The position numbers were made by a program, and so were the translations under genes. A stretch of DNA of 64,000 bases from Argopecten irradians. Lineage: Eukaryota; Mollusca; Bivalvia; Pectinida; Pectinidae. The notes beneath the pieces are model-generated. The model searched no databases. It saw only the letters and a list, made by a program, of their open reading frames with translations, and was not told the origin of the DNA. The stretch spans positions 36,635,604 to 36,699,603 of the forward strand of contig NC_091138.1 in the NCBI RefSeq assembly GCF_041381155.1. Direction: 5' to 3'. Of this stretch, positions 12,501-59,925 are shown piece by piece. Position 1 is the first letter of the stretch. Each line of letters starts with the position of its first letter.

Positions 12501-15500
12501 ATGGTAAAGAAGTTTGAAAATGTCATGGTTAATAAGATTGAAAATGTCATGGTAATTAAGCTTGAAAATGTCATTGTTAAGAAGCTTATAAATGTCATGG
12601 TGAAGAAGCTTGTAAATGTCGTTGTAAATAAGCTTGTAAATGTCATGGTGAAGAAGCTTGTAAAATGGTCATGGTAAATAAGTTTGTAAACGTCATTGTG
12701 AAGAAGTTTGAAAATGTCATGGTAAATGAGCTTGTAAATGTCATGGTAAATAAGCTTTTAAATGTCATGGTAAAGAAGCTAGTAAATGTCATGCTAAATA
12801 AGCTTGTACATGTCATGGTAAATAAGCTTGTAAATGTCATGGTAAAGAAGTTTGAAAATGTCATGGTAAATAAGTTTGTAAATGTGTCATGTCATTGTAA
12901 ATAAGCTTGTAAATGTCATTGTTAAAGAAGTTAGCTTGAAAATTCTGTAATGTTTAAAGAAGTTTGAAAATGTCATGCTAAATAAGCTCGTAAATGTCAT
13001 TGTAAATAAACTTGTTAATGTCATGGTTAATAAGCTTGTAAATGTCATGGTAAAGAAGTTTGAAAACGTCATGTTTAAGAAGTTTGAAAATGTAATTGTG
13101 AAGAAGTTTGAAAATGTCATGGTAAATACACTTGTAAATATCATGGAAAAGAACTTTGTAAATGTCATTGTAAATAGGTTTAATAAATTTCATGGTAAAT
13201 AAGCTTGTAAATGTCATGGTAAATAGTCTTATAAATGTCATGGTAAATAAGCTTGTAAATGTCATGGTAAAGAAGTTTGAAAACGTCATGTTTAAGAAGT
13301 TTGAAAATGTCATTGTGAAGAAGTTTGAAAATGTCATGGTAAATGAGCTTGTAAATGTCATGGTAAAGAAGTTTGAAAATGTCATGGTAAATAAGTTTGT
13401 AAATGTCATGGTAAATAAGCTTGAAAATGTCATGGTAAAGAAGCTTGTAAATGTCATGGTAAATAAGCTTGTAAATGTCATGGTAAATAAGCTTGTAAAT
13501 GTCATGGTAAATAAGCTTGTAAATGTCATGGTAAAGAAGCTTGTAAATGTCATGGTAAATAAGCTTGTAAATGTCATGGTAAATAAGCTTGTAAATGTCA
13601 TGGTAAAGAAGCTTGTAAATGTCATGGTAAATAAGCTTGTAAATGTCATGGTAAAGAAGCTTGTAAATGTCATGGTAAAGAAGCTTGTAAATGTCATGGT
13701 AAAGAAGCTTGTAAATGTCATGGTAAAGAAGCTTGTAAATGTCATGGTAAAGAAGCTTGTAAATGTCATGGTAAAGAAGCTTGTAAATGTCATGGTAAAT
13801 AAGCTTGTAAATGTCATGGTAAATAAACTTGTAAATGTCATGGTAAAGAAGTTTGAAAATGTCATGGTAAATAACTTTGTAAATGTCATGGTAAATAACT
13901 TTGTAAATGTCATGGTAAATAAGCTTGAAAATGTCATGGTTAATAAGTTTGTAAATGTCATGGTAAATAAGTTTGAAAATGTCATGGTAAAGAAGCTTGT
14001 AAATGTCATTGTAAATAAGCTTGTAAATGTCATGGTAAATAAGCTTGTAAATGTCATGGTAAAGAAGCTTGTAAATGTCATGGTAAAGAAGATTGAAAAT
14101 GTCATGGTAATTAAGCTTGAAAATGTCATGGTGAAGAAGCTTATAAATGTAATGATAAAGGAGCTTGTAAATGTCATGTTAAAGAAGTTTGAAAATGTCA
14201 TGGTAAAATAAAGTTTGAAAATGTCATGGTAAATAAGATTGAAAATGTCATGGTAAATAAGATTGAAAATGTCATGGTAAAAATAAGCTTGTAATAATGA
14301 AATCATGGTAAATAAGCTTGAAAATGATGTCATGGTAAATAAGTTTGAAAATGTCATGGTAAATAAGCTTGATTGCTGAAAATGTCATGGTAAATAAGAT
14401 TGAAAATGTCATGGTAAGTTGAAATGTCATGGTAAAGAAGATTGAAAATGTCATGGTAAATAAGATTGAAAATGACATGGTAATTAAGCTTGAAAATGTC
14501 ATTGTTAAGAAGCTTATAAATGTAATGATAAAGAATCTTGAAAATGTCATGGTAAAGAAGCTTGTAAATGTCATGGTAAAGAAGTTTGAAAATGTCATGG
14601 TAAAGAAGCTTGTAAATGTCATTATAAAGACGCCTGCAATTATTTAATATTTTTTAAATTAGGAAGCTTTATCCTGATCAAACTTATACCATCAAAGTAT
14701 ATGCACACACAGTGTAAAAACACACGCAGTATGAAACAAATACAATGGCTTCGCTTCAATAAATTATTTTATTGTGAATACAATGGCTTCGCTTCAATAA
14801 TTCAGAGCTGGGTGATGAGCTACGCCGACGCCTGGATCCTGGGACTGTTTTGCTTGTGCCTACTTACTGGATTTGTCTATCTAACTTTATATCCGCTGGC
14901 TTTACTGTACGAACAATTGCTGTTGATATCTGATTTTGGATTCCAGGCTGCTGAAATGTTTCTAATCCTCAACTATGTATTACACACCAACAAGAGAACG
15001 AATGAAACAGTCAGAGAAGGAGAATCTGTGATTTCGAAGGTATGACACTCCACTCGTACTAGTATCAAACATATATGGTAAAATATGGGATATAATTATA
15101 ACCCGTGGATAAATTCATGTCTTTTTCTAAGTAGTGATAAGAATATAAACTCTTGAACGACACTACCGCAGCCTCCCTGAACAAACACACATCCGTCCCT
15201 ATATGTTAAATGTTAAAATGACAATAAAGTCTAATCGACCAATAAACCCACCAATTGTTTCTGGTACACCATTTTCATATGTATTTCTTGATCCATGTGA
15301 TTTAAAGTTTATAAATGCACATGCATCACCATCAAAGTTGTAGGTAACAAATTGATAAACAAAATATTTCTTTTACTTCATATCCATTGCATCTGTTACA
15401 GCTCGCATTAAACTGTTTCATGACTCTGTGTTATGCCGTGACAGCGTTATTTGGAGTGTCTATTTACGTCGAGGGCTCCCCTCTCCATCAATGGTTGGTA

Positions 15501-26718: not shown

Positions 26719-27645
26719 TCATCGCCGCCCGACTGCAGGTCCTGTCTGTAAGACAAAATACAACACTTTGTTATATAGACTATCTTATCAAAAGCGATCG
26801 CATCGAGTTATTATAAGTACTATACACATATATATTTATTTTCTTGGTTTAAAAGTGCGTGACCAAAGCTGCAGTAAAAATCGATTCAGCTTACACACAA
26901 ATCATAGAAATAAAATAAACCGAATAAATAAAAATAAATTTGATTGGAGTTAATTTGACTCCAGTAAAATAATGTTACGATTAACGTACGCTACGAATCG
27001 TTAAAAATCACATATTAAAAAAAAACATACCATGGCGTGCCTGCATTCAGGTGGAACTTGAAATATCCCGTTAGGCAGTGCTCCTTCGGTTATATCGGAC
27101 AAAAGGAAGGTAGTCGAACCACTAACTACAAGAGAGAAAACAATACCTCTGTAGTGGCTGATCTTTGCTTGACTATTCATAATCAGGGCATATAAGGACA
27201 ACTTTAAGGGATTCCTTAACTTAAATTTCCATAAGAAAAGCATTACAGAGGTTAAAAATCTTAAGTCAAGGAGTCTTCCTTAAAATCTGTAATGCTTTCC
27301 TATGGAAAATTTTAAGTTAAGGGATTCCCTAAATTAATGAATATTCATGAAACTGGGCCCTTCAAATGGCAGTGTACAGTAGATTTGGACAATTTATGAA
27401 AATAAGGCACAGGAAATCTAAATAAAGTCATTTAAATAAAGTCAGTTACACAATGAGTATACATACCACCAGGGCTCAGTACTCCGTAAAATGTTTCCTG
27501 TACGAAAGAACATGTGTCGTTAGTCACTGTGATTTTGTATTCAAGGAGTGGTGTTGTCACTCTCCAGGTATTTATAGCGAGACTGTTATTAGAGCTACCC
27601 AGCACCTGTGTTCCAATAAGCACAGCATCATCTAGAGGGAAGAAA

Positions 27646-27681
<36 letters not shown>

Positions 27682-30195
27682 ATCATCATCATCTTCATCA
27701 TCATCACATCATCATCATCATCATCATCATAACCATGATCACTTAGTATCATTAGCTATACAACTATTCACCACTTTTGTTTACCTGGTATAATATTTTG
27801 TTTACCTGGTATAATATTTTGTTTACCTGGTATAATATTTTGTTTACCTGGTATAATATTTTGTTTACCTGGTATAATATTTTGTTTACCTTGTATATTT
27901 TGTTTACCTTGTATAATATTTTGTTTACTTGGTATAATATTTTGTTTACCTTGTATAATATTTTGTTTACCTGGTATAATATTTTGTTTACCTGGTATGA
28001 TATTTTGTTTACTTTGTATAATATTTTGTTTACCTTGTATAATATTTTGTTTACCTTGTATAATATTTTGTTTACCTGGTATAATATTTTGTTTACCTGG
28101 TATAATATTTTGTTTACCTTGTATAATATTTTGTTTACCTTGTATAATATTTTGTTTACCTGGTATACATGGACTCTGGGCTGGTTGGTAGGAGGCACTT
28201 TTTGAACAGGAACCATCGTGTATGGTATAGGTAATATTCTACAGAAAGTAGAAATAGTTGAATTACGATTAATTCATAGTTAAACATGATATATGCTTAA
28301 TTATATACATGTGGTATGTTTCGCATTGTTTTTTAATGCTTGAAAGTACATAGACTTTTATCAATAACACACATCCCTTTTTAATCCCTCTTAAAACATT
28401 TAGACTAAACCTTTTTAAAACCATTAACACCAATTTCTCTTAAAACGATTAGCCTTATTCCGTCTTAAAAGACCATGAGCGATGAACACCTTGTAAACCA
28501 TTAATCCATATCCCTCTTAAAACCATTAACGCTAATTTTCCTTAAAACTATTAATGCTAATTTCCCTTAAAACCATTAACGCTTAATTTTCCTTAAAACC
28601 ATTAAAGCTAATTTCCCTTAAAACCATTAACGCTAATTTCCCTTAAAACCATTAACGCTTAATTTTCCTTAAAAACCATTAACGCTAATTTTCCTTAAAA
28701 CCATTAACGCTAATTTTCCTTAAAACCATTAAAGCTAACTTCCCTTAAAACCATTAACGCTTAATTTTCCTTAAAACCATTAAAGCTTATTTCCCTTAAA
28801 ACCATTAACGCTTAATTTTCCTTAAAACCATTAACGCTAATTTTACTTAAAACCATTAACGCTAATTTCCCTTAAAACCATTAACGCTAATTTCCATCAA
28901 AACCATTAAAGGTAATTTTTATTAAAACCATTAACGCTTAATTTTCCTTAAAACCATTAAAGCTAATTTCCCTTAAAACCATTAACGCTTAATTTTCCTT
29001 AAAACCATTAAAGCTAATTTCCCTTAAAACCATTAACGCTTAATTTTCCTTAAAACCATTAAAGCTAATTTCCCTTAAAACCATTAACGCTTAATTTTCC
29101 TTAAAACCATTAAAGCTAATTTCCATTAAAACCATTAATCTTAAATCTTAATCTGTCTTATAACCATTAACGCTAAACCCTCTGTAAACCATTTGCGCTA
29201 TTCATTCTAAAATCATTGACGAAAATCCCTTTTAAAAACTATTTTTATGAATTAAACTTCTAAGAAGCTAAACCTACCAACGCTGGCCTCCAGGAGAATC
29301 AGAGGCGATATGATTGAACTATATAAAATAACGAGTCATATTTATGACAAAGAATGCTTTAATGCCATATTACTTTGGAAAGACGCGTCAGATCGCCATA
29401 GCGGTAGAGGACATACGAAAAACAATTCCCTATACGGTCAACAACTATTTCTCGATCAGAACTGTAACTATTTGGAATGAACTGCCAGAACATGTAGTAT
29501 CGGCAATGAGTGTCAACTCGTTTAAGAATAAGTTTGATTATCATTGGAAAAACCAGGAACTTTCTTCAATTACGTAGCAACAATATCATAGAAAACCGTA
29601 ATTTTGTATTTTACTTATGTAATATGTACCTATACGAGTCTTGTATAGGGGATACACTATAGTCCTAAACCAGAATAAACTTATCTTACACTTTAAAAAG
29701 TATAGTTCTAGGTCGAATTCACTATATTGTATGATTAAAATTTTAATGACACGTATTAGTATTAACTTCGTATAATGTATCCCATAATACCCCTGATATC
29801 CAGTGACTGCGCCCATGTAATTGTTTTGAATAGGTCACAGGTGTGATATAACCCAGAGCCTTTATCTTGACATCATGACTTAACAGCTGGGAACAAAGAC
29901 GTTTGGTCATGTTTTGAAGACGTGACCAAAGGACGGTCTCCGCTGGAGTTTTACAACGCATTTTGACGCTGAAAACGTTCTGAAATCTAGGTTATAGTAT
30001 TTATGTGATAAGAATATATGAAACTCGTCTCGCCAATGCTTTTCAGACTTGTTTCGTTAAATTTCATATGGATTGAATACTATATGATTTACTTACCTGG
30101 TTGTAGTCAACGAGTGCAATCTCGGGCTTACCGTCGATTGTTTGTTCTGTTCTAGCCATTTTTAGGTTGTAGTCATAATGGAATTGTATATCGTA
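26719..30195 (-). CDS. Ependymin-related protein gene C, exons 2-6 (exon 1 not found)
   Basis: Minus-strand exons are 30195-30097 (99 bp), 28238-28160 (79), 27631-27467 (165), 27125-27031 (95) and 26745-26719 (27, stop TGA), with phases 0, 0, 1, 1, 0. The peptide runs from YDIQFHYDYN through CSKSASYQPAQSPC and VLGSSNNSLAINTW to GIFQVPPECRHAM, then TGPAVGRR. This is the ependymin-family core: a secreted, disulphide-linked, calcium-binding fold. NNS and NDT are N-glycosylation sequons. Exon lengths and phases match the plus-strand paralogues A and B. If exon 5 is not spliced, a short alternative tail (VCFFLICDF) ends at 27001. The exon 3 donor is the edge of a 19-copy donor minisatellite. A poly(A)-like AATAAAAG lies on the minus strand near 26665. 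The signal-peptide exon was not located upstream. Confidence 0.85.
27188..27361. mobile_element. MITE, GGGCTCAGTTTCATGAA family, copy 1
   Basis: Foldback of about 174 bp whose right end AATATTCATGAAACTGGGCC and left end pair, with inner AGGGATTCCTTAACTTAA / TTAAGTTAAGGGATTCCC arms. It matches the copy at 53828-53999. It lies in intron 4 of gene C, between exons 4 and 5, whose ends are 27467 and 27125. Confidence 0.7.
27643..27731. repeat. (CAT)n microsatellite next to exon 4 of gene C
   Basis: CAT triplets with a few interruptions lie directly upstream (minus strand) of the exon 4 acceptor. The corresponding spot in cassette D (32238-32322) has the same microsatellite. Confidence 0.95.
27779..28159 (-). 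repeat. Minisatellite of splice donors, 21-bp unit, 19 copies
   Basis: On the minus strand the unit is CCAG or CAAG, GTAAACAAAATATTATA. Nineteen GTAAAC donors occur from 28159 down to 27779. The first is the donor of exon 3 (CCATGTATACCAG then GTAAAC). One copy is 18 bp and the rest are 21, so every copy keeps the reading frame. In the exon's frame each extra unit would add GKQNIIP. The frames open across the array on both strands are products of the period. Confidence 0.95.
28385..29235. repeat. Minisatellite, 25/26-bp unit, intron 2 of gene C
   Basis: About 31 copies of TTAAAACCATTAACGCTAAT plus TTCCC or TTTTCC. Two sub-types (AACGCTTAATTTTCC and AAAGCTAATTTCCC) alternate in the later half. 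Cassette D has only about two diverged units at the equivalent place (32725-32800). Confidence 0.9.
29285..29580 (+). mobile_element. LINE 3' fragment
   Basis: The plus-strand frame reads LASRRIRGDMIELYKITSHI, then FSIRTVTIWNELPEHVVSAM and SVNSFKNKFDYHW. This is the conserved C-terminal tail of many CR1/Jockey-type ORF2 proteins (RRxRGDMIxxYK, R..xxWN.LP..VV.A.S...FK..LD..W). Frame changes separate the two parts. It lies inside intron 2 of gene C, in the opposite orientation. Confidence 0.75.
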
Positions 30196-34666: not shown

Positions 34667-37600
34667 ATGATGTTTGTACTTCTATTACTGAGTGTGGTGC
34701 CTCTGGCACTGTCCGGGCCTGTTACGGAACATTGTTGCCTCCCTAGACAGTGGACGGCTACCGTGATGGAGAACGGCATAACCAAATTACCCGACGGCCC
34801 TGCTGCTATAGATGTAAGTAAATTATACAAGTTAATTATTTATATTTCAAAGATACATAATTAACTGGGCGAACATTTTGACACGTTATTTTCTCTTCGG
34901 TAGTCAAAATTAAAAACTATGAGGTTTGAAATGGACAAGAATATATATGATGCCTAATATATATCTTAGTTACAACATAGACGTTATGTACTGTACGATT
35001 ATCTTTTATGCCTTGTGTACGTTAAAATAGAAATATAATTGCAGAAAACACTTTACAGTTTAATAACACTGTAACAATGTGAAATGAAATTATAGACAAC
35101 AACTTGTCTTTATGGTCTAACCGTATGAATAGTAGATGTTAATGTAATAATTTTGGCAGTACTTACAAAAATCATTTTCAGCTCTTATTTGTACTTGTAA
35201 ACATAAAACCATTGAAAGTATTGTAATTCTCAAAATGTTGGTACTTTTGGTGTGAATAGCATAGTTTTCTTGAATCAAGAGTATGAAGAATGCGGCACAG
35301 ATAACTTTTAATAGCGATCTGACTCGAAAGGAAACAAAAATACCGACTTCAGACAAAACTTAATCGTTTTCCTTACGCAACTCAAGTAAAAAAATTAGTC
35401 CTTTTTTACAAAAGTTTCGTGAAACGAGGGCAAAATTTCTATAGGCGCATGATACTACGTTTGTTTCACAAAACAGAAAAAAGTGGTTCTGTTATTCTCC
35501 CTCCAAAGGCTCTCTTAAGAATTATTATTTAATAATGACTTTGCACGAATTTGTATAGTGGCTTTGGTAATGAAATAGAACCGCTTACTCCCCCGAAGCG
35601 CCTTATTATTTACATTTCCAAAACCAAGTGTAATATTGGTAATTATTATTTGCTTAAACATCTTTAGGCTAGGTTTCACTCCATTTATTTTGCTATATTG
35701 ATATCTTAATGTTAAACTTACATTTACACTCAAAATGTTATCCTGATAATTAGCCCGTTAACTAATTGATCTAAAAAATAATTTTCAATTTTGCGTTAAG
35801 CGTAATTTGATGTATTGTTATTGTTTTAGAGTAGAAACCTTTAATTCACTAGTCACATGCTTTATTCTGGAAGATATGGCATTAATTTGTGAAGAAAACA
35901 ATTATATGAAATAATAAATAAATAAATGAAAGCACCCAAATAAAACACAAAAATCCCAACGGAAACGTTATTCCATAAAGTAGAACACAAAACAAAACAG
36001 TTACACAAAATGCCAAAATATATGTACCAGTTTTTATACACAAATAAGTACAAAAAACAACGATACAATAGGCTGAAATTGAAACAATGATGATACAATA
36101 CATTATCACAAAAAGACAAAATCAAACAGTGAATGTATCATTAATATCAACACACAACAACAATAAACAAAACTAACCATCAAACGACTTCAAAGAATAT
36201 AACTTGTTATTATTCTCCGTTAAGAACCTTCAGTAGTAATACATGAAAAGAAATATGTCTTCTGTTACATTAACGAATAACAGAAATGAGAAACCAGCAG
36301 CTAAATTCAAAACACAATTTAATTATATATACAATATTATACATAGATGGTTTACAATATCTAGAGTAATTCGTGGTGGTACAAGAGTAATACGATGATT
36401 TAAAGTGTTACTTATCTGTATGTGAATGTCCTGGTATAATCCTTGATCCTTCCAGGTTTCAAATTAACAATAATCACAAATCCACAAGGAAATTGAATGT
36501 CCCCCGATGATTTGTAAAGTTCCAGGCAATATGAATAAATCCAAACAAAGTGTTGTAATAATCCACAGATAAAGTCACAATAGCTCTCCCAATAGAATCT
36601 TATATGGCGCTGTACAATTCTTGATATGTCTTATTACAGGTCTCATTACAGTTCTGATTAGCCTTGGACAGCTGGAGTATATATAGCTAAACCGTAATTC
36701 AAGAATATTGGAGAACCTTCTACTTCTAGAAATATCTAACTAAAAACAGTAAACAAGTAAACACACATAACTTTCTGGAAATAGATCATTCTAGATCTCT
36801 ACTTAAAATCAACATGTTTACAAACATATTTGTTTATACATGATTATATTCTAGAAAGTTCTATAACCTAAATCAATGATATGACCTTCATAGCATGTAT
36901 TGATAAAAAAAGCTATAGGAGTTATCTCCCTTATCTCATAACTACATGTATTTAGTGTCATACATAACACACCCCTCCTTAAAGAAAAGAAAGTTTTCTT
37001 GAAAAGGAAACTTTCTTGACATATCAAGTAATATTTAAATCCTTGATAAAGCATCTGCTAGAATATTGTCTTTCCCTTTGATATGTTTGATGTCAAGATT
37101 GTATTCTTGCAAAGTCAAACTCCACCTGAGAATTCTTTGGTTTTTGTTTTTCATTTTCCCAATGAATGTCAAAGGGTTGTGGTCGGTGAAGACCAACACA
37201 GGCACAACTGTAGTGCAGAGATACACATCAAATTGGTTCAAGGCCAAAATCAACGCTAAACATTCTTTCTCAATGGTGGAATAATTTCTCTGGTGTTTGT
37301 CAAACTTTTTCGAGAAATAACAAATTGGATGGTCAATTTGTTCAGTACCTTCTTGCATCAAAACAGCACCAACACCTACATCGCTGGCGTCAACAAACAG
37401 TTTAAACTGTTTATTAAAATCTGGAGCAGTCAGAACTGGTGAGTTTGATAGTATGGCTTTCAATTTCTCAAATGCAGACTTACATTCGTCTGACCAAACA
37501 AATTTGACATTTTTCTTTAACAAAGCAGTAAGTGGAGCTGCTATAACAGAGAAATTTTGACAAAATTTTCTGTAGTATCCAGCCATACCAAGAAATCTCA

Positions 37601-40600
37601 TCAGCTCTCTCTTGCCTCCAGGAGTTGGAAAATCTATAATTGATTCTACTTTGGCCTGAACAGGTTTAACCTGCCCCTGTCCTACAACATGGCCTAAAAA
37701 TTCAACAGTTGCATGACAAAATTCACATTTCAATAAGTTTACAGTCAATTTCATGGTAGTGAGTCTTTCGAAGAATTCACGAATCCCGCGTAGATGGTCT
37801 TCCCACGTGTCGTGGTAGTTGATGACGTCATCGATGTATCCATCACAGCCTTCCAGGTCTGATATCACGCTATTAAGAAGACGTTGAAATGTTGCCGGGG
37901 CATTCTTCATACCAAATGGCATAACTTTGTACTGGTACAAACCTTGCGAGGTTACAAATGCCGACACTTCTTTAGCTCTTTCTGTTAATGGCACCTGCCA
38001 ATATCCTTTCAACAGGTCAAACTTGCTTACGTACTTGGCTTTGCCAACTTTGTCAATACACGAGTCAATCCTTGGAATTGGATAAGAGTCTGTTTTACTG
38101 ACAGAGTTTACTTTTCTGAAGTCAGTACAGAACCGGTATGTCTTGTCTGGCTTTGGTACCAGAACACATGGAGAGCTCCATTCACTTTTGCTTGGTTCAA
38201 TAATATCATTGTCCAACATGTATTGAATTTCTTTCTTTAAGTGTTCTTCTTTCAAAGGATTGACACGGTAAGGATGTTTCTTGACAGGTGGCGCATCGCC
38301 TACATCCACGTCGTGATAGATAGCATCTGTTTTGCCTGGTGTATCCGGAAACAAATGTTTATACTCAAGTATCAAATCTTTAAGTTCATTGCGTTCCTTT
38401 TCCGATAGATGACATAGTTTCTTGTCCAAGTTCGCGAGCACATCTGAATTCCTTAACTTAACACCACAGTCTAAACCTACATCTTGTACACCACCATCTA
38501 AGTCTAATTTACAAATATCAGCTGTACTTTCACTTTGTGATGGTACAGAGGCCAAAGTAGCAATAGGTTGAGAGGTCTTGCTCTCTTCTCTATCTACATA
38601 TTCCTTAAGCATATTAACATGACATAATTGAGTTTTCTTGCGCCTCCCTGGAGTTTGTACAATGTAGTTAACATCATCGACCTTTTTCTCAACAATATAA
38701 GGTCCAAAATATCTAGCTTGCAAAGGCTGACCCGGTATTGGTAATAGAGCCAAAATTTTGTCACCTGGATCAAAACTTCTTGCACGGGCATCTTTATCAT
38801 ACCATGTTTTCATTTTGGTTTGAGTAAGGGCCAAATTTTCTTTTGCCAATTCACATGCCCTTGTCAACCTTTGCTTAAAGTTACACACATAATCTAAGAG
38901 ATTCACTTTAGAATCTTCGTCCAAAATTTTGTCTTTCAAAATTTTCAAAGGACCACGTACAGTATGTCCAAACACAAGTTCAAAGGGACTGAAGCCAAGA
39001 GATTCTTGTACAGATTCTCTAACGCCAAACAACAACATGTGTATACCTTCGTCCCAATCTCTTTTGTTTTCAAAACAATAAGATCTCATCATATTCTTCA
39101 ATGTCTGATGAAAACGTTCTAAAGCACCCTGAGACTCTGGATGATAAGCACTAGACTTATACTGCTTGATCTGGAGCTGGTACATGACTTGTTGAAAAAT
39201 ACCAGACATGAAATTCGAACCTTGGTCCGATTGGACAGCTTTTGGAAGACCAACCAGTGTAAAGAATTTAACCAAAGCCTTGACTATGTTAGGGGCTTTA
39301 ATATTCCTGAGTGGAATGGCTTCAGGAAAGCGTGTGGAAGCACACATAATAGTTAAAAGATACTCATTCCCAGACTTAGTTTTGGGTAGAGGACCTACAC
39401 AGTCTATAATGACTCTACTAAATGGTTCCTCAAATGCTGGAATGGGGTGCAAAGGTGCAACAGGGATTTTCTGATTAGGTTTCCCTACCACCTGACAAGT
39501 ATGACAAGACCTACAAAAATCAGCCACATCCCGTTTCAACTTGGGCCAAAAGAAGTGATCTAAGATCCTGTTATAAGTCTTGGTCACACCTAAATGCCCT
39601 GCCATAGGTACGTCATGAGACAAACTCAGAATATCTTGCCTATACCTCGGTGGGACAACTATTTGATTGACAACCTTCCAGTCTTCCTCGGGAGACACAT
39701 CAGGGGGGCGCCACTTGCGCATCAACACACCTGACTGACGGAAGTAACAAACCGGGACTTTCTCAGCCTCTTCCTCACTCAAAGCCCGATTACACAATAA
39801 GGAGATTTCAGGATCTTTCTCCTGTTCTACTATAAGCTCCTCTCTAGACAAAGATGATTTACTCATCATGTCAGACAAAGAAGTACCCTTGTTAGGAACA
39901 ACTCTATCACTATCAAAGTCTACAGGATTGCTCAAAAGATCACACTTGCTCCCGACATCCTCTATATCATGAGCCAAGAAAGTGTCACCTAACCCTGGAC
40001 TATAATGATCCTCAACTACTGCAACATCAGAAACCTTCTTACTCATTGAACGAGTTACAGCACAAGAAGGGAAAATACCAGGAAATTCCTGTTGAATAGT
40101 CTCAGCATCATCTGTTTTATCTGGAATACTGGACACTAAGGGATCTACCCTAACTTTCTCTCCAGCCAAGTCATTGCCTAAAATGAGCGACACGCCCTCT
40201 ATGGGAAGTTCCGGTCTAACACCAATGGTGACAGGCCCAGTAACCAAATCTGACTTTAAATAAACACAATGGAGAGGCACATTAACAAAACCTAACACTA
40301 CACCTTGAAGTAAAACACTACTACCAGATGAGGTCTCCTCAGACAAAGGCACTACGCCATCTAATATCAAAGAATGAGAAGCCCCAGTATCTCGCAAAAT
40401 CTTCACAGGTTTCAAGTTGGTAATATCACTAGTAAGTGAAACAAAACCTTCAGAAATGAAGGGAGAGTACTTCTCCAAGACACTATCAGACTCTGAGCTC
40501 TTAATCTCAACAGACACTTTAGAATCTTCCACAATATCACTAAGTTTCTGACTAGGCTTTGACATAGCTAACACAGAAGGAACTGACTGTTTACGCCTTT

Positions 40601-43600
40601 GCTCCTTACGCTGGAGAGAATAACATTCAGACATAACATGCCCTACTTTCTTGCAGTAATTACAAACAGGACCAGAAGGAGACCCCACACCTACCCTATC
40701 ATCTGTTTTAGAAGCAGACTTAGTTTTATCACCTAATTTAGGTTTGTCGTTGGAAGGGCCACTAAAGGTTGGGTTCCTAGGCTGACCAAATTTACTAGTA
40801 CCTGTGGTACTGTTTTTGTCTTGAGAACTGTTTTTAACAAATGAGCCTTTGTGGGTGAGAGCGTAATCATCACCCATTGTAGCTGCTTCACTAAGTGTTT
40901 CAACTTTTCTCTCATCTAAATGAGTTTTTATGTTTGTGTGGACACAACGTTTAAACTCCTCTATCAACAATAATTGCCTCAATTTACCGAAATCCTCATC
41001 AATTTCTTTAGAATCACACCACCTATTAAATAATTGTTCCTTTTCTCTGGCAAATTCTACATGAGTTTGTTCATCTCTCTTTCTCGAGTTTCGAAATTTC
41101 TGGCGGTAAGCCTCAGGAACTAACTCATAAACTTTCAAAATAGCTTTCTTGACTACTTGGTAATTTGAAATCTCATCTACAGATAAAGAAGAATAAATGT
41201 CTCTAGCTTTACCAATCAAGACACTTTGAAGAAGCATTGTAAGCTTATCTTCAGGCCATTTCATACTATCAGCTATTTTCTCAAAATGCAGAAAATACTT
41301 GTCAACTTCTTTCTCTTGAAAAGGAGGAACTAACCTAATGTTTCTACTGACATCAAAACCTCTGTTTCCTTGTAAACCCCTAAAAGTTGGATTACTTGAA
41401 CTGTCTTGAGAAGCTAGTTCTAATTCTTTAATTCTAAGTTCTGTTTCAGCTTGAATTTTTTGCTTCTCTAGCTCTAACATCTGATCTCTCTCTTTTTCTT
41501 TTAATTCTTTCTCAATTTCTTTTTCTCTTAACTCCTTTTCTATTTCTCTTTCTCTCATTTCTTTCTCTTTATCTATTTCCATTTGTCTTAGTTTCATTTC
41601 ATGTTCAAGTTCCATTTGTCTAATTTGAATTTCTGAACTGACTGTTTCCTCTATACTATCTAATGCACTAGAGTCAAATTTGCCATTGTCAACAAAATAT
41701 CTTATAATTACATTCCTAATTTCAGCTTTCCTCAAATTAGTTTTGATAGTAAGGCCTAAATGTTTACCCAATAACAGTAAATCCTTCTTACTAACTTGCA
41801 AAAGAACTTCCAGGGATGGCGCTTTAACAAACTGTTCTACCTGCATAGTAGTCATATTTATCTAGCTGTTGGTTTCAAATGTAAACTCAAAGTTTGTACA
41901 CAAATTTTGAAAATTTCTTAATTAATTTTTCAAAGTTAGATTTCACAAATTGAATATCGATCCCGGACACGAGCCCCCAATTTCTGTTACATTAACGAAT
42001 AACAGAAAGGAGAAACCAGCAGCTAAATTCAAAACACAATTTAATTATATATACAATGTTATACAGAGATGGTTTACAATGTCTAAAGTAATTGGTGGTG
42101 GTACAAGAGTAGTACGATGATTTAAAGTGTTACTTATCTGTATGTGAATGTCCTGGTATAATCCTTGATCCTTCCAGGTTTCAAATTAACAATAATCACA
42201 AATCCACAAGGAAATTGAATGTCCCCCGATGATTTGTAAAGTTCCAGGCAATATGAATAAATCCAAACAAAGTGTTGTAATAATCCACAGATAAAGTCAC
42301 AATAGCTCTCCCAATAGAATCTTATATGGCGCTGTACAATTCTTGATATGTCTTATTACAGGTCTCATTACAGTTCTGATTAGCCTTGGACAGCTGGAGT
42401 ATATATAGCTAAACCGTAATTCAAGAATATTGGAGAACCTTCTACTTCTAGAAATATCTAACTAAAAACAGTAAACAAGTAAACACACATAACTTTCTGG
42501 AAATAGATCATTCTAGATCTCTACTTAAAATCAACATGTTTACAAACATATTTGTTTATACATGATTATATTCTAGAAAGTTCTATAACCTAAATCAATG
42601 ATATGACCTTCATAGCATGTATTGATAAAAAAAGCTATAGGAGTTATCTCCCTTATCTCATAACTACATGTATTTAGTGTCATACATAACACTTCTGATA
42701 TAGATTCTCAAATATTATAAATTGAGCATTTGTTAAATACAAATTCAACACACTTTTTCGAGAAAGAAATAATATTATACTCAATATATAAAATACAATG
42801 CTAAACGAACACGATACCATATTATATTTTATGTTTTTATCTTAGTACGTTACAAAAATGACGTTGGATTTGGACAAGAATAGGCTGAGGATGGACAGGA
42901 ACGGCTTCTTACATAACAAACCAGAGCAACAGACAATGCTTGTAGACTACGGAGCGGTCAGTACTCTTTATTTGTGTATTTCAGGGTTATCTGCCCCTGT
43001 TTGCAGGTTATCAACCATAGTTCGTCATGAGTTTGTGTGCTTAACGTCATTTTTTAAGAATGTTTTTGTTTCAAGAACTAATGACGTAACAAACATTGCC
43101 TGACTTTAAGAGCAGACAATTATTTAGCACCCAAATACGGCACATGCTCTATTAGCATTATATTACTTCTGAAACAATAACAGTGCAGGAAATAGGATTT
43201 CCAAAGATGAAACAAACATTTCACCCCACAATTATACGAGTCACAAGTATATGTATCGCATTTAAATTTTTGTCTCATGTTATAGAACATAATGGTGGAT
43301 ATTCTATAATAATATTTTAAGGTTTTGCTTGATCGAAATCAGTACGAAATCGATAGATAGCATGAAAGGTAAAATTAACAATAAAGCTTAAATTTTCATG
43401 AAAACCTTAATTTTGTCGTGAAGTATGATACTATATGTTAAATCATGACTTGTAAATTTATATATAAATATTATAATTATAATGTTGTAACACTGTCAGG
43501 TTAACTCAGGATTTATAATCTGTTACCGAAAACTTTTTCATGTTTTTACTTAATAAAGTATGTATTTATGTTTCAGCATCGCTTGTTCTTTATAAAGGAT

Positions 43601-46600
43601 GGGTTTTGCGTTAATACATCGCTGGCAGCATCTCCTCCCGAGGAATGCCTTGCACGTACGAATGAATTTTATAATATTAAAAAGTCCCATTTCTTTATAT
43701 TACATAGTCCATATATCCGGTTATTTACACGCGTTAAAATGTTTGCGATTTTGAATAAATTGAGAAACGTTAATTTGAGTTTTATCGATTTCGCTATAAG
43801 CGTATAATATATGATTAATTCATGTTTAAACATTTCACAGATCAATTTTGTGCTCACAGCAATGTGCCGTAAAATTGCAAAATAAACCGATGTACTGTAG
43901 ATGATTATAACATGTAGTGTAAAGAACATCCCCGATATTCACGGAGTTACTATCACTGTCGCAATATCCACACTTGGACTATGTCATATAAAAAAATGAA
44001 GGTTTTGTGTGCGATAACAGATGAGAGAGGTAGTTTGGTGCTTTGTTGTGCATCAAAAGACCCAAACAACGGTTCATTTTATGTATTTGAATCTGGGTGA
44101 TACTTTCTGTAATATTCAAAGAAAGTACTAATATCTGTAGGCATGTGATTTATTAGTTTTTCTCTTGACATGCCTTCAGTTTTACGATGACACAGTACAT
44201 GAGTGGATAAAACTAGAGATAGTAACCCCTGGGCTATCAATAAGTATACGAGTCATTCTCAGAAATGTTCCAAATATCACAAAAAGAAAACGGAAAAATT
44301 TATCTCAATAAATAGATAACTTTGGTTCAGAAACTTAAAGAATGATCATTGTAGATATCAAAATAATATTGTTATTTCCTGATAAGCTCCCGATAAGTTA
44401 CTATGACGACCAAAAGATGTCAAGGTCAAATGTCCATGGTGTTACCATACTTAAATACTATTAAATCCTGTTTTAAAATATTTTGAAGTAATTAATAACT
44501 GTTCATTTCATTTGATATTGTGTGAAAGTTATAGTTCATTTCAAATTATTTTACTTTAATGCTCCGTAATCAGATGGCAAACACTATATCTCACCAGTCA
44601 ACATTCTTGTGCTTTTATTGCACACATATACTTTTCATTTTATTATATAAAATGACTCAAAAAGATTATTACTTTTTTGACAAAGATTTTATTTTGATCT
44701 TTCATTTATTTTTTGTTTGTTAACATGCTTTAAAGTTCATCTTAAACTTATCAATTTGCAATATGTTTGTCCCGGTAACACTATGGACATTGATTGAATA
44801 CAACAGACATTTGTCCATGGTGTTACCGGTGAGAAATGTTTTGTATAGTTCTTGATCATCATAATGAAATTCATTAGAGATCAAAAATGGACTAGGTAGA
44901 CATAATACTATGATATCAAAGAGTTTTAAATATATCTATGTTACAAAAGGAGTAAAAAAACAGTATTTCTTTGTCCTTGTCTATGGTGTTACCACGTTTG
45001 TTCATAGTGATACTAAGACTAAATGTGGTGGTACTGTTGACGATTATATTTGTAATTCATTATTTTGAAATTTATTTCATCTATGGGGATGTATACATCA
45101 AATATTATAACAATTGATGACAAGGTGTCTTAAAATTTTTCTTGTATGACTCTTTTATGTCTGTGGTGGTGTTATCAAAAATTGTCTGTGGTGTTACTAT
45201 TTTATCACTATTAGGTAACACCAAGGACAGTTACACCACAGACGTTTTCTTCATTTTTTAAAGATTTTCATTTCTGCTCTCAATCATAGGTCAAACTGTC
45301 ACATCTTAATTTGAACTAACTAGTGGTTCCTTTGAAATACAACAGAGAGTTTTATTGAAAATACATGTCATAGCTCAAAATAACTTGTAACACAATAGAT
45401 ATTGAAATGTTCATTGATAGCTAAATTTGTCATTGATTTGATTTAAGTAAAAAAACTTCCCTCCCTTGGACTTAAGTCATCAAGTGTCATATAGCTAGGG
45501 AGTAGATGCTTAGTGAATACATTATAGATAATATTACTTATCATTCCTAGTGATGCATCATTTGAACCAAAATGATTGTGGTAACACCACAGACATTTCT
45601 TCAAAGGACAGGCTAACTTTTTATTAAAAATTTATTAAAATATCTTTTTTTTTCAAAACCTATGAAAACTTTTAAATATTTGATGATTACCTACAAAACA
45701 AATACCAACTTAACATTTTATCACACTGAAACAACATTTTATTTATGAATTTGGGTAATTTCTCTTGTGACAAGTCTATTTCCGGCAGTTGCCTTATTTT
45801 GAATAAAAAAAAAATCAACATAATTCTAAAATCTTATTTTAAGAACAAAGTGCATTAAAATTTACTTTCTTTGCTCCATATAGTCAGTTTTAAATCTCAA
45901 ACAACCCTTTCCTGTTCAAATGTTTCCAAAAGGACAATATATACAGAAGGCAGTTATTTGGAACTTTTCTGAGAATTACTCATATTCTATTCCAATAAAT
46001 TCAATAGAAACAATATTTCAAATTACTCATTGAGAAGCTAGTGATAGATTACTAAATCTGGAAATCAAGATGCCCAAAAGACCATTTAAGAATTTTCCAT
46101 AAAATTATTATTTGTCAACGATGTTTGATACATTGTAGCGATATTTAGTTAAATTTAGTTTCTTGTTATATGGTTGTGAATTTTCTCTATTGCAGATAAT
46201 AGCTATAAATTTGAAGGTCGACACCACATTGGATCAGTAAGTAATACAATTATCAGCGATGAATGGTCGACTTCCACTAATGCAAACATAACAATGACAC
46301 TTTACATATCCGAGGATTGCGTACCCATTGTACAGGTGTACACCGATTTATCATCTCAATGTAAGTATTAATTACTAAGGATATCCTTCTTTGTTTGTCG
46401 TTTTAATTTGTTTCATGGAAAAAAGGCATACCGTTTCGCTCGCACTTTGTAGTCTCACTTTAAACACTTGCCTGCAGATATGTACATAATATTTATTGTT
46501 ATCTTAATAATTCTTAATATTAAAAATCCAAAAGTCTAATTAGTCACATGGACAAAATCGACTTTATTTTTTACCTTCCTCTTTCTTCTGCTTCAATCTG

Positions 46601-53586: not shown

Positions 53587-56500
53587 ATGGTAGTAGTGGG
53601 ACTATTACTATGCTTTGTACAAGTGGCCCTATCTGGGCCTGTAACGGAACACTGTTGTCTCCCTAGACAGTTTACGGCCACAGTGATGGAAAATGGTGTA
53701 GTCCAGCTACCCACTGGTCCTACAGCAATTGATGTAAGTAAAGGTTATAATTATGTCCGTATCTGGCTAGTAATGATCTGATCATTATGGTTCCATGTGG
53801 TTAGGCCTTCTTTAGATGTATGGTGACCCAGGGCTCAGTTTCATGAACATTTCTTAACTTTAAGGAATTCCTTAACTTAAAATTCTCCATAGGAAAGCAC
53901 TACAGAAGTTAAGAGAAAATCTTAAGTTTAGGAGCACTTTCTTTTTTTTGAAAATTTTAAGTTAAAGGAAATTTAAGGAATGTTCATGAAACTGAGCCCA
54001 TATGCTACCGACCTGTAATCGCTCTTTAATTTTATTTTTAAAGACGTTTTGCGTAATCGAGGAAATAGAGAAAAATACCAACTTTTTTCTTTGCATGATT
54101 TTAATTTCAGTAAACCTTTTAGGAGTATCACAAGTTTTGTTGATATATTTGCCCAATGCCTATTGTAAACAATCGTATCCAATGCTAACGACGTTATCAT
54201 TTTCAATCTCATTTCGCAAGTTGTAGTTTTAGAATGTTAGAATACATTTCCCATGGTATGCCTTATAAAAAGGAGTACACGTTCATTCTGATTTAGTGGG
54301 TGATTTTTTCTTACTCAAAATAGAAGTGTCTTGCTAGAAGCCAATACAAGTAAATAACCGGCTATTTGGATGTCGTTTATAAGTCAATGGTTGCAGGATA
54401 AACATAATACATGGTTAGTATATTAGAATACAAGGTTTATTTTGGTGTTCTACACAGAAAGCCAAGATGACTCGATAAAGCTGACTCAGCAAAGCCTCGT
54501 CATCTCTGCTTTTCTAAATTTTGCACCAAAATAAACCTTGTATTGTAAGATAATACCTATGTTTTCTTTATGTACATATATATCAGTACATGTTAACGTT
54601 GTATTCTAATATAAAACCTATGTATTCTCTTTGTATTTCAGTACCTTTACCACATGTTAACGTTGTATTCTAATATAAAACCTATGTATTCTCTTTGTAT
54701 TTCAGTACCTTTCCCACATGTTAACGTTGTATTCTAATATAATATCATGTATTCTCTGAGTATTTCAGTACCTATCCCACATGTTAACGTTGTATTCTAA
54801 TATAAAACCTATGTATTCTCTAAGTATTTCAGTACCTATCCCACATGTTAACGTTGTATTCTAATATAAAACCTATGTATTATCTATGTATTTCAGTACC
54901 TTTCCCACATGTTAACGTTGTATTCTAATATAAAACCTATGTATTATCTATGTATTTCAGTACCTATCCCACATGTTAACGTTGTATTCTAATATAAAAC
55001 CTATGTATTCTCTATGTATTTCAGTACCTTTCCAACATGTTAACGTTGTATTCTAATATAAAACCTATGTATTCTCTATGTATTTCAGTACCTTTACCAC
55101 ATGTTAACGTTGTATTCTAATATAAAACCTATGTATTCTCTGAGTATTTCAGTACCTATCCCACATGTTAACGTTGTATTCTAATATAAAACCCATGTAT
55201 TCCCTATGTGTTTTCAGTACGTTTCCCACTTGCTATGCTTGGTCACTATACGCTAATACTAGCCGATTTTGTTTACCATAACTGCATGGTAACATTAAAC
55301 TTTGAACTTGCGTAAGAAAATGTTCTATGCAACGTAAAAGGACTACTTTTTTTAAACAAACACATGGCTTTGTTTACATTTTGATGCAACATTACGTGTA
55401 TATTGTTGTTTTTCATAGAATTTTGGAAAAATGTAAACAATAAATACATGTTTTATATTTATATATGATTCAAACAATTTTTAAATTAACAATTGTATAA
55501 AGAAACGGAAAAATATCCCGACCGGGGCGACGTGCTTTCATTTTTGTTAAAAATGATGGGTGTCAAATGTAAACATTACCTCTGTGTCTGTGTTCGTCAT
55601 ACGATCTAGTCTTTTGGGTGGACGGGCGTGAGACCTCCTGATAGAGGTCAGTTATAAACATATCCTCTTGTCTTTGTTCTTTGAGAATTTAATCATGTGT
55701 ATTATAAAACATGCACCGCTAGTAATCCACGTGTTGACAGTTACGCGTCACCACAAATACATTGTATCCATCGAACACAAGTGAAGTTGTTCCATCTATA
55801 GCCTAGATGGCGATGGATATAAGCGTAGATTATATAATCACATGGCTCCGAAGGATGTAATATCGTCAAGTCAGACGACAATCTCAAACAAATTTAGCTA
55901 CTTGAACACTGGTGTTTTGACAACTTCGGAAAACTCCACTGTGTAAGCGTGCGTCAGCCTCGCCTCGCTGCACAATAACGGTCACCGAGTTCACACATGT
56001 GGCCGAGAACAAATACTTTATGTTATTACGCTATATATGAACTTTTTGCAAAATTTAATACCTACTTAAAGTTCTGATCTGATTAAATAAAATTATCTCT
56101 GAAATTTACTTTGTTTGTCATGTTTATTTTACACTAAAATATTGAACTTTTTTGTCGTCGCGGATGAATAATTCTACCTTACGTGCAGCGTCATCATTCG
56201 CTGTTCAATTGAGTAAGCTCCTCCCACTTTTGACCGACTTTTATTGAATAATTACGTCACTTTCAAATGACGATTTTATTGCATAAAATATAAATAAAAA
56301 GTCGTGTGAGTGTAAATATAGGGATTGGATTTCGTTTTTATGTTAACCATGCTTGTATGGAGCAATTCCTCTAAGAATATATTCAATATGGGGCGCTAAC
56401 GCGCCCCATAGAATATATTCTTAGAGGAATTGCTCCATACAAGCATGGTTAACATAAAAACGAAATCCAATCCCTATATGAAACATTTGTATTCTCTATG

Positions 56501-59500
56501 TATTTCAGTATCTTTCCCGCATGTTAACGTTGTATTATAATATAATATCATGTATTCTCTATATATTTCAGTATGTTTCCCACATGTAGACGTTGTATTA
56601 TAATATAATACCCATGTCTTCTCTATATGTCTCAGTACTTTTCCCACATAACATTTGACATAGACAAGATGATGATGAGGATGGACCGGGATGGATACGT
56701 ACATAACAAGCCGGACTCGCAGACTATGTTCAATGACTACAAAGCGGTAATTCTGATACACTTTTCCGTCTTTGTTGTGACATCATTATTTTGTGAGAGA
56801 AATTTACCTTTTCTATGAAAAGCATGACGTTACGCTAGCAAACATACGACTCACAATCAATACCTACACTCAAGGATTGATAATGTTATTACCTGACTCT
56901 CTACATAAATGTAAATGAAGTAATTTCGCCTATTTAATTTTGTTGACGTCATAGTTAAATGATGACGTCATAAACACCGGCGCGCCGTATCGACCCAAAT
57001 AACCGGTATTCGTTCTGCGAAAGTTTTTCCTACAAGAAGCTCAGTGATAAGTTTAAGATTGCGGTTCAGGTAACAAAACAGTTGTTTCATGCCTTTTCAG
57101 TCAACAGTCAAAATTCTTTCCCTCGGTGTTGGGTGGTACCCTATAAACTGTTTCCTTCGGCCTCCGGCCTCGGGAAACAGTTCATCGGGTTGGTCCCAAC
57201 AACTCGGGAAAGAGTTTTGACAGTTGACTGAAAAGGCATGAAACAACTGTACACTATTGACTGGTCAATAGTTTGACTGTTGACCGGCGCGGAATGTTTG
57301 TATGCGCTTTATTTTGTTGACGTCATAATTAATTGTTGACGTCATAAACACCGGCCCGCTGGATTCTTTCAGCGAAAGTCTTTCTCGCCAGAAGCTGTGA
57401 TCAGTTTAAGATCGCGGTTCAGGTAACAAAACAGTTGTGTCATGTTTTTTAGTCAACAGTCAAAATTCTTTCCCTCGGTGTTGGGACCAACATCTCGGGA
57501 AAGAGTTTGACTCTTGACGGAAAAGGACTGAAACAACTGTATATTAACGTCATAAACAACGGCGCACCGGATCGACCTAAATACCGGTATTCTTTCAGCG
57601 AAATAGATAATGAGATAAGCTCATTGATAAGTTTAAGATTGCAGTTCAGGCAATAGAACAGTCCCAACACCTCTGGAAAAAATGTTTACTGTTGACTGAA
57701 AAGGCAAGAAACAACTGTATACTATTAACCGGTCAATAGTTTGACTATTGACCGGTGCGGAACGTTTGCATGCGCTTTATTGTTGACGAGATAATTTTGA
57801 ATTGTTGACGTCATAAACACAGGCGGATCGACCCAACTACCGGTTTTCTTTTGGCAAAAGTCTTTCTCGCAAGAAGAAGTCATTAGTTTGCGATTGCGGT
57901 TCAAGCAACAAAACAGTTATTTCATGGTTTCTGGCCTCGTGGAAAAAAGTTCATCCGGTTGGTCCAAACACCTCGGGGAAAGTTTTGACTATTGACTAAA
58001 AAGCCATTAAACAACTTTACTATAATATGCAAATAGAGTATAAGCGAGATTAGAAGTTATTCGTTGTGTAGACGTAACCAGTTTCGACGAGTACAGCGAA
58101 ATAAATACTCTTCAAATATTTGCACTTAAAAAACTATGTCTTGTTGATACTTTTAAGTAGATAGTAATGGTACCGATGTAACATAGTCATCGGACAATTT
58201 TATACTGATATCAATTATTATTGGTATCGAAATTTAATATCAGTTGCAGTCATATTGCAAAATTAAAGCATTTTGATGATGACGATGTATGCTGTAAAAG
58301 TTATTGACAAAAAAAATATATCGACCGAGGACGAGAATATTGAATCTTCATATACATTTTTGTAGCCTGTTCACGAAAATTATAAACTGCTAAAATTAAT
58401 CGTCTCATTATCTGTTTAAATGTTCACATAAATTAAAAGCTTTACAGTAGATACACGTACAAACTATATTTTCAATTCATTGCTCTATGTTTCAGAATCG
58501 TACATACTTTTATAACAAGGATCGGTTCTGTTCACCGATGCATGTGGCCACAGTTCCTCCGGTGTTGTGTTTTTCTGGTAATGAGATTAACTTCCCTCCT
58601 GTTTTCATGGAGAGAGTAGGTTTTTAAATAACGAAACGTTAACTCTCATGTGTAAGCACTTCTAGATTAACGTATTGGAGGTGACTGGGTTTAAAGCCAA
58701 AAGCTCAAGGTCAAACAGGGTCGAAATATTTCACAAATTGTCATCCGTTGAAGGTATGGTTATAAAACCGAGGATTCTACCATATTGTCTAAGACTGATC
58801 TTGTCGTTTATACTTTATTCAGGTATAATTTTCTGTGATTTTTCAGAACTTTGATATTTATTAAAATGCAGTCTGAAGTCAAACGAATGGTGTATTTTCT
58901 CTACTTCAGATAGTAGTTACCATTTTGAAGGCCGTCACCACTTTGGATCCAAAGATCACAATATCATCAGCGATGCGTGGTCGACAACGCTTAATGGAAA
59001 CATTAATATGACCTTTTATGTAACCGAAGATTGTACACCAGTAACACAGATTATCATAGCTTTGGAAAATGAATGTACGTATCAAACAAAAATAAATTTT
59101 GTTTATGTTTAAAGGGACATAATCAAAAAATAATTTTTAATTCAAACACATTGTTTGTTCAAAGCAAATCATGTTGTAAAAGTAAAATTGTTAAATGAAT
59201 TTGCGACCCGATCTGGTTCTATTCTCGCTGCAGCTTATACTAACTATTTTATTATACATAATGATAATATGTTCAGTACAATTTGCAATAAGAATAGGAC
59301 CAAAATTCGTGTCGCAAAATCACACAGCAATTTTACTTTGACAATATAATTTGCTTTGAAAAATAATTTGTTTTTAGCATATGCATCCATTATTAGCACT
59401 GTGTTATCAATAATTCGGGACAGTACATATTCTTATTGGGACGTTCAAAGGTATCATATTAAAGATGCTCCACCGCTGACAAATGGTAGTTTTTATCTAT

Positions 59501-59925
59501 TTTGTTTTCTGTATCAAAAGCAGGAGCGGACAAATAATATTTTCTTCAGTTACAAAAGTTACTTACTTTATACCATTACCATCATTGAAAAGTTTGAGCT
59601 TTTAATTTTACTTCAAGATAAAAATACTTGGATCTCGAAAAAAAAATCTATGGCACTACACTGTATGTCCAATATAGAATGAAGTACTGATTGCACATGC
59701 ACATGGACCAGAATCAAAATTAATTAATTAGACACATATAGACACGATTAAACACCAATAACTGTTCAGATGATGAGTATTGTTTATTCTCTTTCGCCGG
59801 TGGAGCATCATCCATATGATTTGTTTTCTGTTGTAGATCCTTCACAATCTATTTGGACCTACACAAAATTCCAACACGGTGTCAAGCCGGAACTTCTTAC
59901 ATTACCTGCCAATTGCCACCCATAG
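53587..59925 (+). CDS. Ependymin-related secreted protein B, 5 exons, 197 aa
   Basis: Coding exons are 53587-53733 (147 bp), 56636-56746 (111), 58496-58577 (82), 58910-59074 (165) and 59837-59925 (89, stop TAG), with phases 0-0-1-1. Signal peptide MVVVGLLLCFVQVALS is followed by GPVTEHCCLPRQFTATVMEN, nearly the same as in A. Exon 2 has DRDGYVHNKPDSQTM, exon 4 HFEGRHHFGSKDHNIISDAW and CTPV, exon 5 ends PANCHP. The paired CC, the exon 3 and 4 cysteines and the final Pro-x-x-Cys follow the ependymin pattern; NMT in exon 4 is a glycosylation sequon. Exon 3 is one codon longer and exon 5 one codon shorter than in A. A and B are tandem duplicates in the same orientation. The acceptor of exon 2 is the last of a series of repeated acceptors. 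Confidence 0.9.
53828..53999. mobile_element. MITE, GGGCTCAGTTTCATGAA family, copy 2
   Basis: The termini GGGCTCAGTTTCATGAACAT and ATGTTCATGAAACTGAGCCC are near-perfect inverted repeats, with inner AGGAATTCCTTAACTTAAAA arms. 172 bp, in intron 1 of gene B. Confidence 0.85.
54427..54544. mobile_element. Short foldback element, 118 bp
   Basis: AATACAAGGTTTATTTTGGT pairs with ACCAAAATAAACCTTGTATT at the other end. The ~75-bp centre is weakly palindromic (AGCCAAGATGACTCG). No coding capacity. It sits at the start of the acceptor minisatellite. Confidence 0.7.
54560..55217 (+). repeat. Minisatellite of splice acceptors, 64-bp unit, ~10-11 copies
   Basis: The unit is TGTATTTCAG, TACCTTTCCCACATGTTAAC, GTTGTATTCTAATATAAAAC and CTATGTATTCTCTA. 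The TTTCAG/TACCTTTCCCACAT part mirrors the true exon 2 boundary (CTCAG/TACTTTTCCCACAT at 56635/56636). Acceptor AG dinucleotides recur at 54641, 54705, 54768 and onward every 64 bp to 55217. Three further units lie at 56487-56636, the last forming the exon junction. Confidence 0.95.
55218..56486. other. Sequence inserted into the acceptor minisatellite
   Basis: About 1.27 kb separates the main array from its last units. Its right end is a 164-bp palindrome (56316-56479). The remainder includes GC-richer sequence near 55920-56000 with no gene or recognised element. The array continues in register after it, so this looks like an insertion, but clear outer termini were not found. Confidence 0.5.
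56316..56479. repeat. Near-perfect 164-bp palindrome
   Basis: About 78-bp arms start ATATAGGGATTGGATTTCGT and end with its complement. The arms differ only around the centre (AATATGGGGCGCTAAC against CGCGCCCCATAG). Transcribed, it would form one long hairpin. It is located in intron 1 of gene B. Confidence 0.9.
56487..56635 (+). repeat. Terminal units of the acceptor minisatellite, ending at exon 2 of gene B
   Basis: Two diverged units (TTTCAG followed by TATCTTTCCC and TATGTTTCCC, at about 56510 and 56572) precede the real acceptor CTCAG at 56631-56635. They share CACATGT, ACGTTGTATTATAATATAAT and ATGTATTCTCTAT with the main array. Confidence 0.9.
56940..58020. repeat. Four tandem units of ~230-370 bp with internal palindromes, intron 2 of gene B
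   Basis: Units begin near 56940, 57315, 57545 and 57785, each with GTTGACGTCATAAACACCGG, GAAAGTCTTTCTCGC, AAGATTGCGGTTCAGG and AACAAAACAGTTGT. Inside, ACAGTTGTTTCATGCCTTTT and AAAAGGCATGAAACAACTGT, with CAGTCAACTG / GACAGTTGACTG arms, form long foldbacks. Later units are shorter through internal deletions. No coding capacity. Confidence 0.75.
59459..59810. mobile_element. MITE, AGATGCTCCACC family, copy 2
   Basis: The left end TTAAAGATGCTCCACCGCTG pairs with GCCGGTGGAGCATCA at the right. The interior matches 8237-8598. It sits in the last intron of gene B and ends only 26 bp before exon 5, so its right TIR lies close to the acceptor region. Confidence 0.8.

Follow-up and report, generated by a model that had tools for sequence, protein, structure and literature searches.

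The first intron of a predicted ependymin-related gene of Argopecten irradians, here named gene B, was analysed in a window of 64,000 nucleotides (assembly GCF_041381155.1, contig NC_091138.1, positions 36,635,604 to 36,699,603 of the forward strand). All coordinates below are those of this window and all features are on its forward strand unless otherwise stated; the analysis is based on one assembly, the window's own 846-Mb genome. Exon 1 of gene B (53587-53733), located by tblastn within the window, encodes a signal peptide followed by CCLPRQF... and ends at the donor GTAAGT; in the same search the exon 1 protein of the paralogous gene A (34667-34813) was 73% identical. Exon 2 (56636-56746), recognised by its protein likeness to gene A, encodes YFSHITFDIDK...DYKA behind the acceptor TCTCAG/TAC. 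Its homologue in gene A (42846-42956; 54% protein identity) has the plain acceptor TTTATGTTTTTATCTTAG/TAC. Exon 3 (58496-58577; 43% identity over 30 residues with the gene A frame 43505-43804) and exon 4 (58910-59078; 54-56% identity with gene A) are predicted from this likeness and from the joined model. A tentative last exon (59778-59925), with an acceptor tract of merely 47% pyrimidine, completes the model as a reading frame of 218 amino acids.

Between positions 54500 and 56700, 14 CAG/TA sites were found, with spacings of 55, 64, 63, 64, 64, 64, 64, 64, 64, 65, 1291, 63 and 64 bp. Thirteen of them are potential decoys and the last is the real exon 2 acceptor (56636). The earlier note had counted about 13 copies of this acceptor and described a run of decoy 3' splice sites before the true one, without stating plainly that the true one is a unit of the array too. 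The first site (54587, unit 0) lacks most of the exon motif, and an additional CAG/TA of intron 1, at 54111, lies outside the array series. The sequence TTTCAGTACNTTTCCCACATG, with up to three mismatches, was matched 13 times in the window, always within 54636-56650 and finally at the real exon 2 boundary, and 0 times in 100 dinucleotide shuffles. Tandem Repeats Finder reported two blocks, the first at 54588-55229 (period 64, 10.0 copies, 94% matches) and the second at 56488-56649 (period 63, 2.5 copies, 87% matches). Every unit of both blocks still has its CAG, and nowhere in the series of spacings is there room for a lost one. The note had drawn a single array from 54560 to 56650; the repeat stands, but it is not continuous, being interrupted by a transposon at about 55230-56479.

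Each unit is composed of about 38 bp of a transposon end, about 9 bp of intron down to the CAG, 14 bp of exon 2 and 3 bp (GTT). The 14-bp match to exon 2 given in the note is borne out: the acceptor is followed by the first 14 coding bases in every unit except unit 0. The origin of the unit at the exon 2 boundary holds for its acceptor and exon part; however, about 38 of its 64 bp are transposon end, which had been missed. The junction between transposon body and array lies at 54524-54587, where the right arm of a palindrome (54524-54565) is followed by unit 0, with its CAG ending just before 54587. Block 1 (54588-55229) holds ten units of transposon end, 9-10 bp to the CAG and 14 bp of exon 2, with decoys from 54642 to 55218, and block 2 (56480-56649) consists of the decoys 56509 and 56572 and, at its end, the true acceptor together with the 14 initial coding bases of exon 2. 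The transposon body adjoins unit 0 alone and the exon body adjoins the last unit (13) alone, the true acceptor being itself this last unit, with a transposon-derived tract in front. Mean identity to units 1-9 was 89-96% for those units, 81% for the true unit and 74% for unit 0; the edges of the array, the true boundary adjoining it, are thus more diverged than its middle. With units 0 and 11 left out of the alignment, 43 of 66 columns were invariant.

The transposon in front of unit 0 (54266-54574) is the 3' part of an old, 5'-truncated Helentron/HINE-like copy, 76% identical to positions 418-714 of the stretch of family copy L014; its 3' end is directed at exon 2. Because it is truncated and only 76% identical to L014, the founder copy is either old or from another subfamily. 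It carries the 3' subterminal inverted repeat GTTGCAGGATAAA (54390-54402), which is the inverse of the 5' end TTTATCCTGCAAC, and then a palindrome of 160 bp with its loop (54406-54565), whose arms (54406-54447 and 54524-54565) are 86% complementary; the transposon-derived part of the units is the reverse complement of the left arm. In the family copies, the corresponding places likewise gave opposite-strand matches. The 211 bp at 54390-54600 belong to a high-copy family, with 1535 first-look candidates in the genome, of which 40 were scored. The ends of the family were established from 14 copies in the same orientation, representing 13 distinct sites (L012 and L016 share flanks). All 14 end in ...AAATAAACCTTGTATTGTAAGATACTAACC(A/G)TGTATTCTCTAT, beyond which the flanks differ, all carry TTTATCCTGCAAC at the 5' end and GTTGCAGGATAAA near the 3' end, and all show TACTAAC followed by a pyrimidine-rich stretch at the terminus. 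By eye, the 5' region of L014 contains GCCGGATAAA, close to the inverse of TTTATCCTGC, and the 14 copies have T-rich ends and AT-rich flanks. Helentrons and HINEs in general are characterised by a short inverted repeat next to the 5' subterminal repeat, a microsatellite, insertion at TT and a Rep/helicase/endonuclease partner that shares their ends. Subterminal inverted repeats of 11-13 bp and a 3' palindrome are described for Helentrons and HINEs (PMC4067079, PMC7492417), and judged by these two features the founder family is Helentron/HINE-like.

The 38 bp in each unit correspond to the transposon end from AACCTTG onward. Without gaps, the transposon end matched at 36 of 42 positions in unit 0 and at 33-35 of 42 in ten further units; the best value for the rest of the window was 26, and 200 first-order Markov controls of the intron reached at most 27. 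Aligned identity was 76-86% in 13 of the 14 units and 53% in the remaining one, which the second transposon interrupts. A search pattern requiring two ends no more than 30 bp apart had four matches in the genome, all in the array, and its reversed control had none. Within the window L014 had no match outside 54266-56626, and none in gene A.

When exon 1 was read into each decoy and on through exon 2, translation ended at a stop 54 to 91 residues along for all 13, compared with 218 residues for the true site, these counts being based on the predicted gene B model with its tentative last exon. A period of 64 had been taken in the note to disturb the frame. Decoy use would indeed be harmful on this model, but the argument from the period does not hold: the extensions from 54587, 54833 and 55025 are divisible by three and meet stops even so, and the harm is therefore not due to frame alone. 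The true site gives an exon of 111 nt, 56572 one of 175 nt and 56509 one of 238 nt. The latter two are within the usual range of exon sizes, while unit 0 and the block 1 decoys would need exons of 1.5-2.2 kb, so that 56509 and 56572 alone look like serious competitors. The tract before the true site is 76% pyrimidine; the range is 59-76% for the 13 decoys and 47-76% for six further acceptors belonging to genes A and B. The true site and 12 of the 13 decoys each scored 5 of 7 in a crude branch-point count. A retrocopy of the spliced gene was sought as proof of the junction; protein searches with exon 2 (E up to 1) and with exon 4 each recovered genes A and B alone. As the last unit offers the sole open frame and the smallest exon, we infer splicing to it, and exon definition would be the likeliest cause of this choice. 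Recursive splicing was rejected, since the units read by eye CAG/TACC instead of AG/GT and give no ratchet site.

From these data, it is probable, and we hold it with good confidence, that a junction between the transposon end and exon 2 was amplified in tandem, leaving a tolerated array with splicing to its last unit. In the proposed sequence of events, the transposon would have landed about 9 bp before exon 2, with its 3' end toward the exon, severing the native pyrimidine tract and branch point from exon 2, and its terminus (TACTAAC and the pyrimidine-rich stretch) would have taken the role of 3' splice signal. The segment spanning the transposon/exon junction would then have been duplicated in tandem to give a second copy, possibly with the help of the short likeness between AACCTTG in the transposon and AACATTTG in exon 2. 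Unequal exchange or slippage would have enlarged the array, and the second transposon would have split it much later. The transposon body at the first unit only and the exon at the last only match a tandem duplication crossing the insertion junction, and the diverged edges around a similar middle suggest that the edges escape homogenisation, as in the mirages discussed below.

Several observations weigh against this origin. The founder copy is 24% diverged from L014 and its 5' 417 bp are gone; the distance from transposon to exon is 9 bp in most units and 15 in unit 0; GTT at the unit junctions is explained by neither transposon nor exon; and the TACTAAC of the family is mutated in every array unit. 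The breakpoint microhomology (AAC-TTG, from AACCTTG and AACATTTG) was read by eye. The two-ends pattern is strict, catching 4 of the 12 unit-to-unit junctions here, and would miss diverged tandem ends elsewhere. As regards splicing to the last unit, the pyrimidine content and branch-point score of the true site are equalled by several decoys, so that sequence does not single it out, and use of 56636 as acceptor is deduced from sequence and the predicted model.

The best surviving alternative, although unlikely, is that the repeated acceptors have a function in gene B, where splicing to them would be regulated and either alternative or unproductive, for example through poison extensions that lower its mRNA. 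Every unit retains its CAG, the tract is 65-76% pyrimidine in 12 of the 13 decoys (true site, 76%), and early stops follow all 13 decoys, which would be expected of poison extensions. However, with 43 of 66 columns invariant, intact CAGs need no selection, and selection on the decoy CAGs was discarded as unsupported. The array would be a tolerated passenger rather than a regulator.

A simple duplication of the native intron end and exon start, in which the likeness to the transposon is due to chance or AT-richness, is improbable. In its favour, the exon part of the unit and the 9 bp before it are native, and the comparable lancelet cases are described without a transposon in the passages of PMC3087553 drawn on here. 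The ten units with 33-35 of 42 matches nevertheless exceed the maximum of 27 in the controls, and the transposon copy continues into unit 0. Similarly improbable is a masking role of the left arm of the palindrome (54398-54447), which could pair with the block 1 decoys in the pre-mRNA in a docking- and selector-like manner; decoys and mask alike would then come from the transposon. Docking and selector pairing is a feature of mutually exclusive exons. Predicted pairing of the arm with branch-point regions was -31.6 to -36.0 kcal/mol for the ten block 1 decoys, -29.0 for the true acceptor, -28.2 for unit 0 and -25.7 and -20.1 for the two decoys nearest the true site, with a mean of about -12 to -13 and a minimum of -22.1 kcal/mol in 50 shuffles per unit. 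Against masking, unit 0, the nearest partner of the arm, pairs no more strongly than the true site, and a single arm would have to serve all copies.

It is very improbable that the array arrived with a mobile element as its central repeat: Pacific oyster HINEs do hold satellite-like central repeats (PMC7492417), but the array lies beyond the 3' palindrome and not centrally, block 1 has no genome match elsewhere, tandem ends were found by the strict pattern here alone, and the unit includes exon 2 bases, which are diverged in the homologous exon of gene A, without an array. The four of four matches of that strict pattern, in this array alone, also disfavour an internal repeat of the transposon. 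A dispersed satellite was ruled out, since a DNA search of the genome with block 1 (very common words skipped) gave two matches, both in the window.

With a transposon-founded duplication as the preferred origin, the array can be compared with known systems. Mirages are minisatellite-like duplications of an intron 3' end and exon start in lancelet globin genes (PMC3087553), which reportedly leave regular splicing undisturbed (PMC3087553, PMC3902484) and whose mechanism of generation was called unclear in 2010 (PMC3087553); PGBD5 carries similar boundary repeats (PMC3902484). The gene B array shares with the mirage of BflGb6, as far as described there, tandem units over the intron end and exon start, many splice signals kept, a homogenised middle, diverged edges and a true boundary beside the array (PMC3087553, PMC3902484). 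It differs from the lancelet mirages in gene and organism, and in that most of the intronic part of its unit stems from the end of a recognisable transposon, the body of which still adjoins the first unit. Length instability between alleles is a further trait of mirages; the one assembly contains the gene B array once. The gene B array, having the structural features tested, is a mirage with a visible transposon founder. No published report of a transposon-founded mirage was found in a search that left most subscription journals outside. In the potato RdRp gene, an intron was gained via tandem duplication across an intron-exon boundary (PMC4974935). As there, the duplication in gene B crosses the acceptor boundary and takes in a short piece of exon along with the tract, the 3' splice site and a putative branch site; unlike the potato case, with its duplication and detected new intron (PMC4974935), gene B has 14 copies and shows no sign of a new intron.

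The layout of the array allows its founding to be reconstructed: a transposon end would have replaced the acceptor signals before the insertion junction was amplified. Such a course of events can be tested and would lead from an inserted transposon to tandem acceptors, and possibly on to intron gain. For the latter the units would be a standing substrate, since in each of them 14 nt of exon are followed by 50 nt that begin with GT, end with AG and have a weak donor. The locus is also a natural test of spliceosome choice among many near-identical 3' splice sites.

The second transposon within the array is a young HINE-like element of 1.25 kb (55230-56479, left limit uncertain by a few bases), with palindrome arms of 80 nt at 56316-56395 and 56400-56479. 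It is 98.0-99.6% identical to ten same-orientation copies, and its insertion is therefore recent. All ten copies have the 10-bp repeats TATTTACACT and AGTGTAAATA; the window retains the second only, so the outermost 5' bases have been lost here. Both transposons resemble the non-autonomous Helentrons HINE and DINE-1 in their short subterminal inverted repeats and 3' palindrome, but differ from what is described for these in the length of the palindromes, 160 bp with loop in the founder and arms of 80 nt in the second element (PMC4067079, PMC7492417). Same-strand runs of the second family (L039) were observed on C4 (11.737-11.739 Mb), C13 (3.986-3.989 and 4.014-4.018 Mb) and C15 (18.488-18.492 Mb), as expected for rolling-circle elements.

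Gene B is called ependymin-related because of its likeness to gene A in exons 1, 2 and 4 (73%, 54% and 54-56% identity), the link running solely via gene A. It had no match to Pfam Ependymin; gene A (22.4 bits) and the gene C exon (19.3 bits) were below the cut-off of 32.3, and exons 3-4 of paralogue D (35.8 bits) were above it. No solved structure related to gene B was found by phmmer at E up to 10. For several animals, clusters formed by duplicated ependymin-related genes have been reported (PMC6280359).

On the reverse strand, gene C holds a donor array (27775-28167) with a 21-bp unit, CAG/GTAAACAAAATATTATAC, that carries CAG/GTAAAC at the exon donor; the array already recognised in the note was recovered, with 19 copies of GTAAACAAAA spanning the junction. 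Paralogue D has a single CAG/GTAAGC at that donor, without an array. No transposon part was seen by eye in the 21-bp unit, and the genome holds 37 matches besides the array itself, on several large contigs, with relatives of 65-74% identity and one short match of 91%. For these two reasons the arrays of genes B and C were treated as separate events. The shared mutational process suggested by the note applies only in a loose sense, each array being a tandem repeat that spans a splice junction, and the founding events look independent; two boundary arrays among four recognised genes are striking, as one general kind with separate events. The minisatellite of IFI6/G1P3, with multiple splice donors, is reportedly also made of splice junctions and resembles the gene C array; it is said to differ from that of gene B in repeating a donor instead of an acceptor, with no transposon.

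Other repeats were observed in the window. A palindromic repeat with ends GGGCTCAGTTTCATGAAC lies in gene B intron 1 (53831-53999), with a second copy beside gene C (27200-27361). Intron 1 of gene A holds, on the reverse strand, an open frame of 1608 amino acids (37035-41861) with zinc-knuckle, integrase-like and reverse transcriptase-like parts recognised by eye, flanked by near-identical short frames (36412-36630 and 42134-42352); the region looks like a recent long terminal repeat retrotransposon. Finally, positions 9787-14622 are occupied by a 4.8-kb array of about 200 copies of a 24-bp unit, with frames open for up to 345 codons on the forward strand and 468 on the reverse strand.

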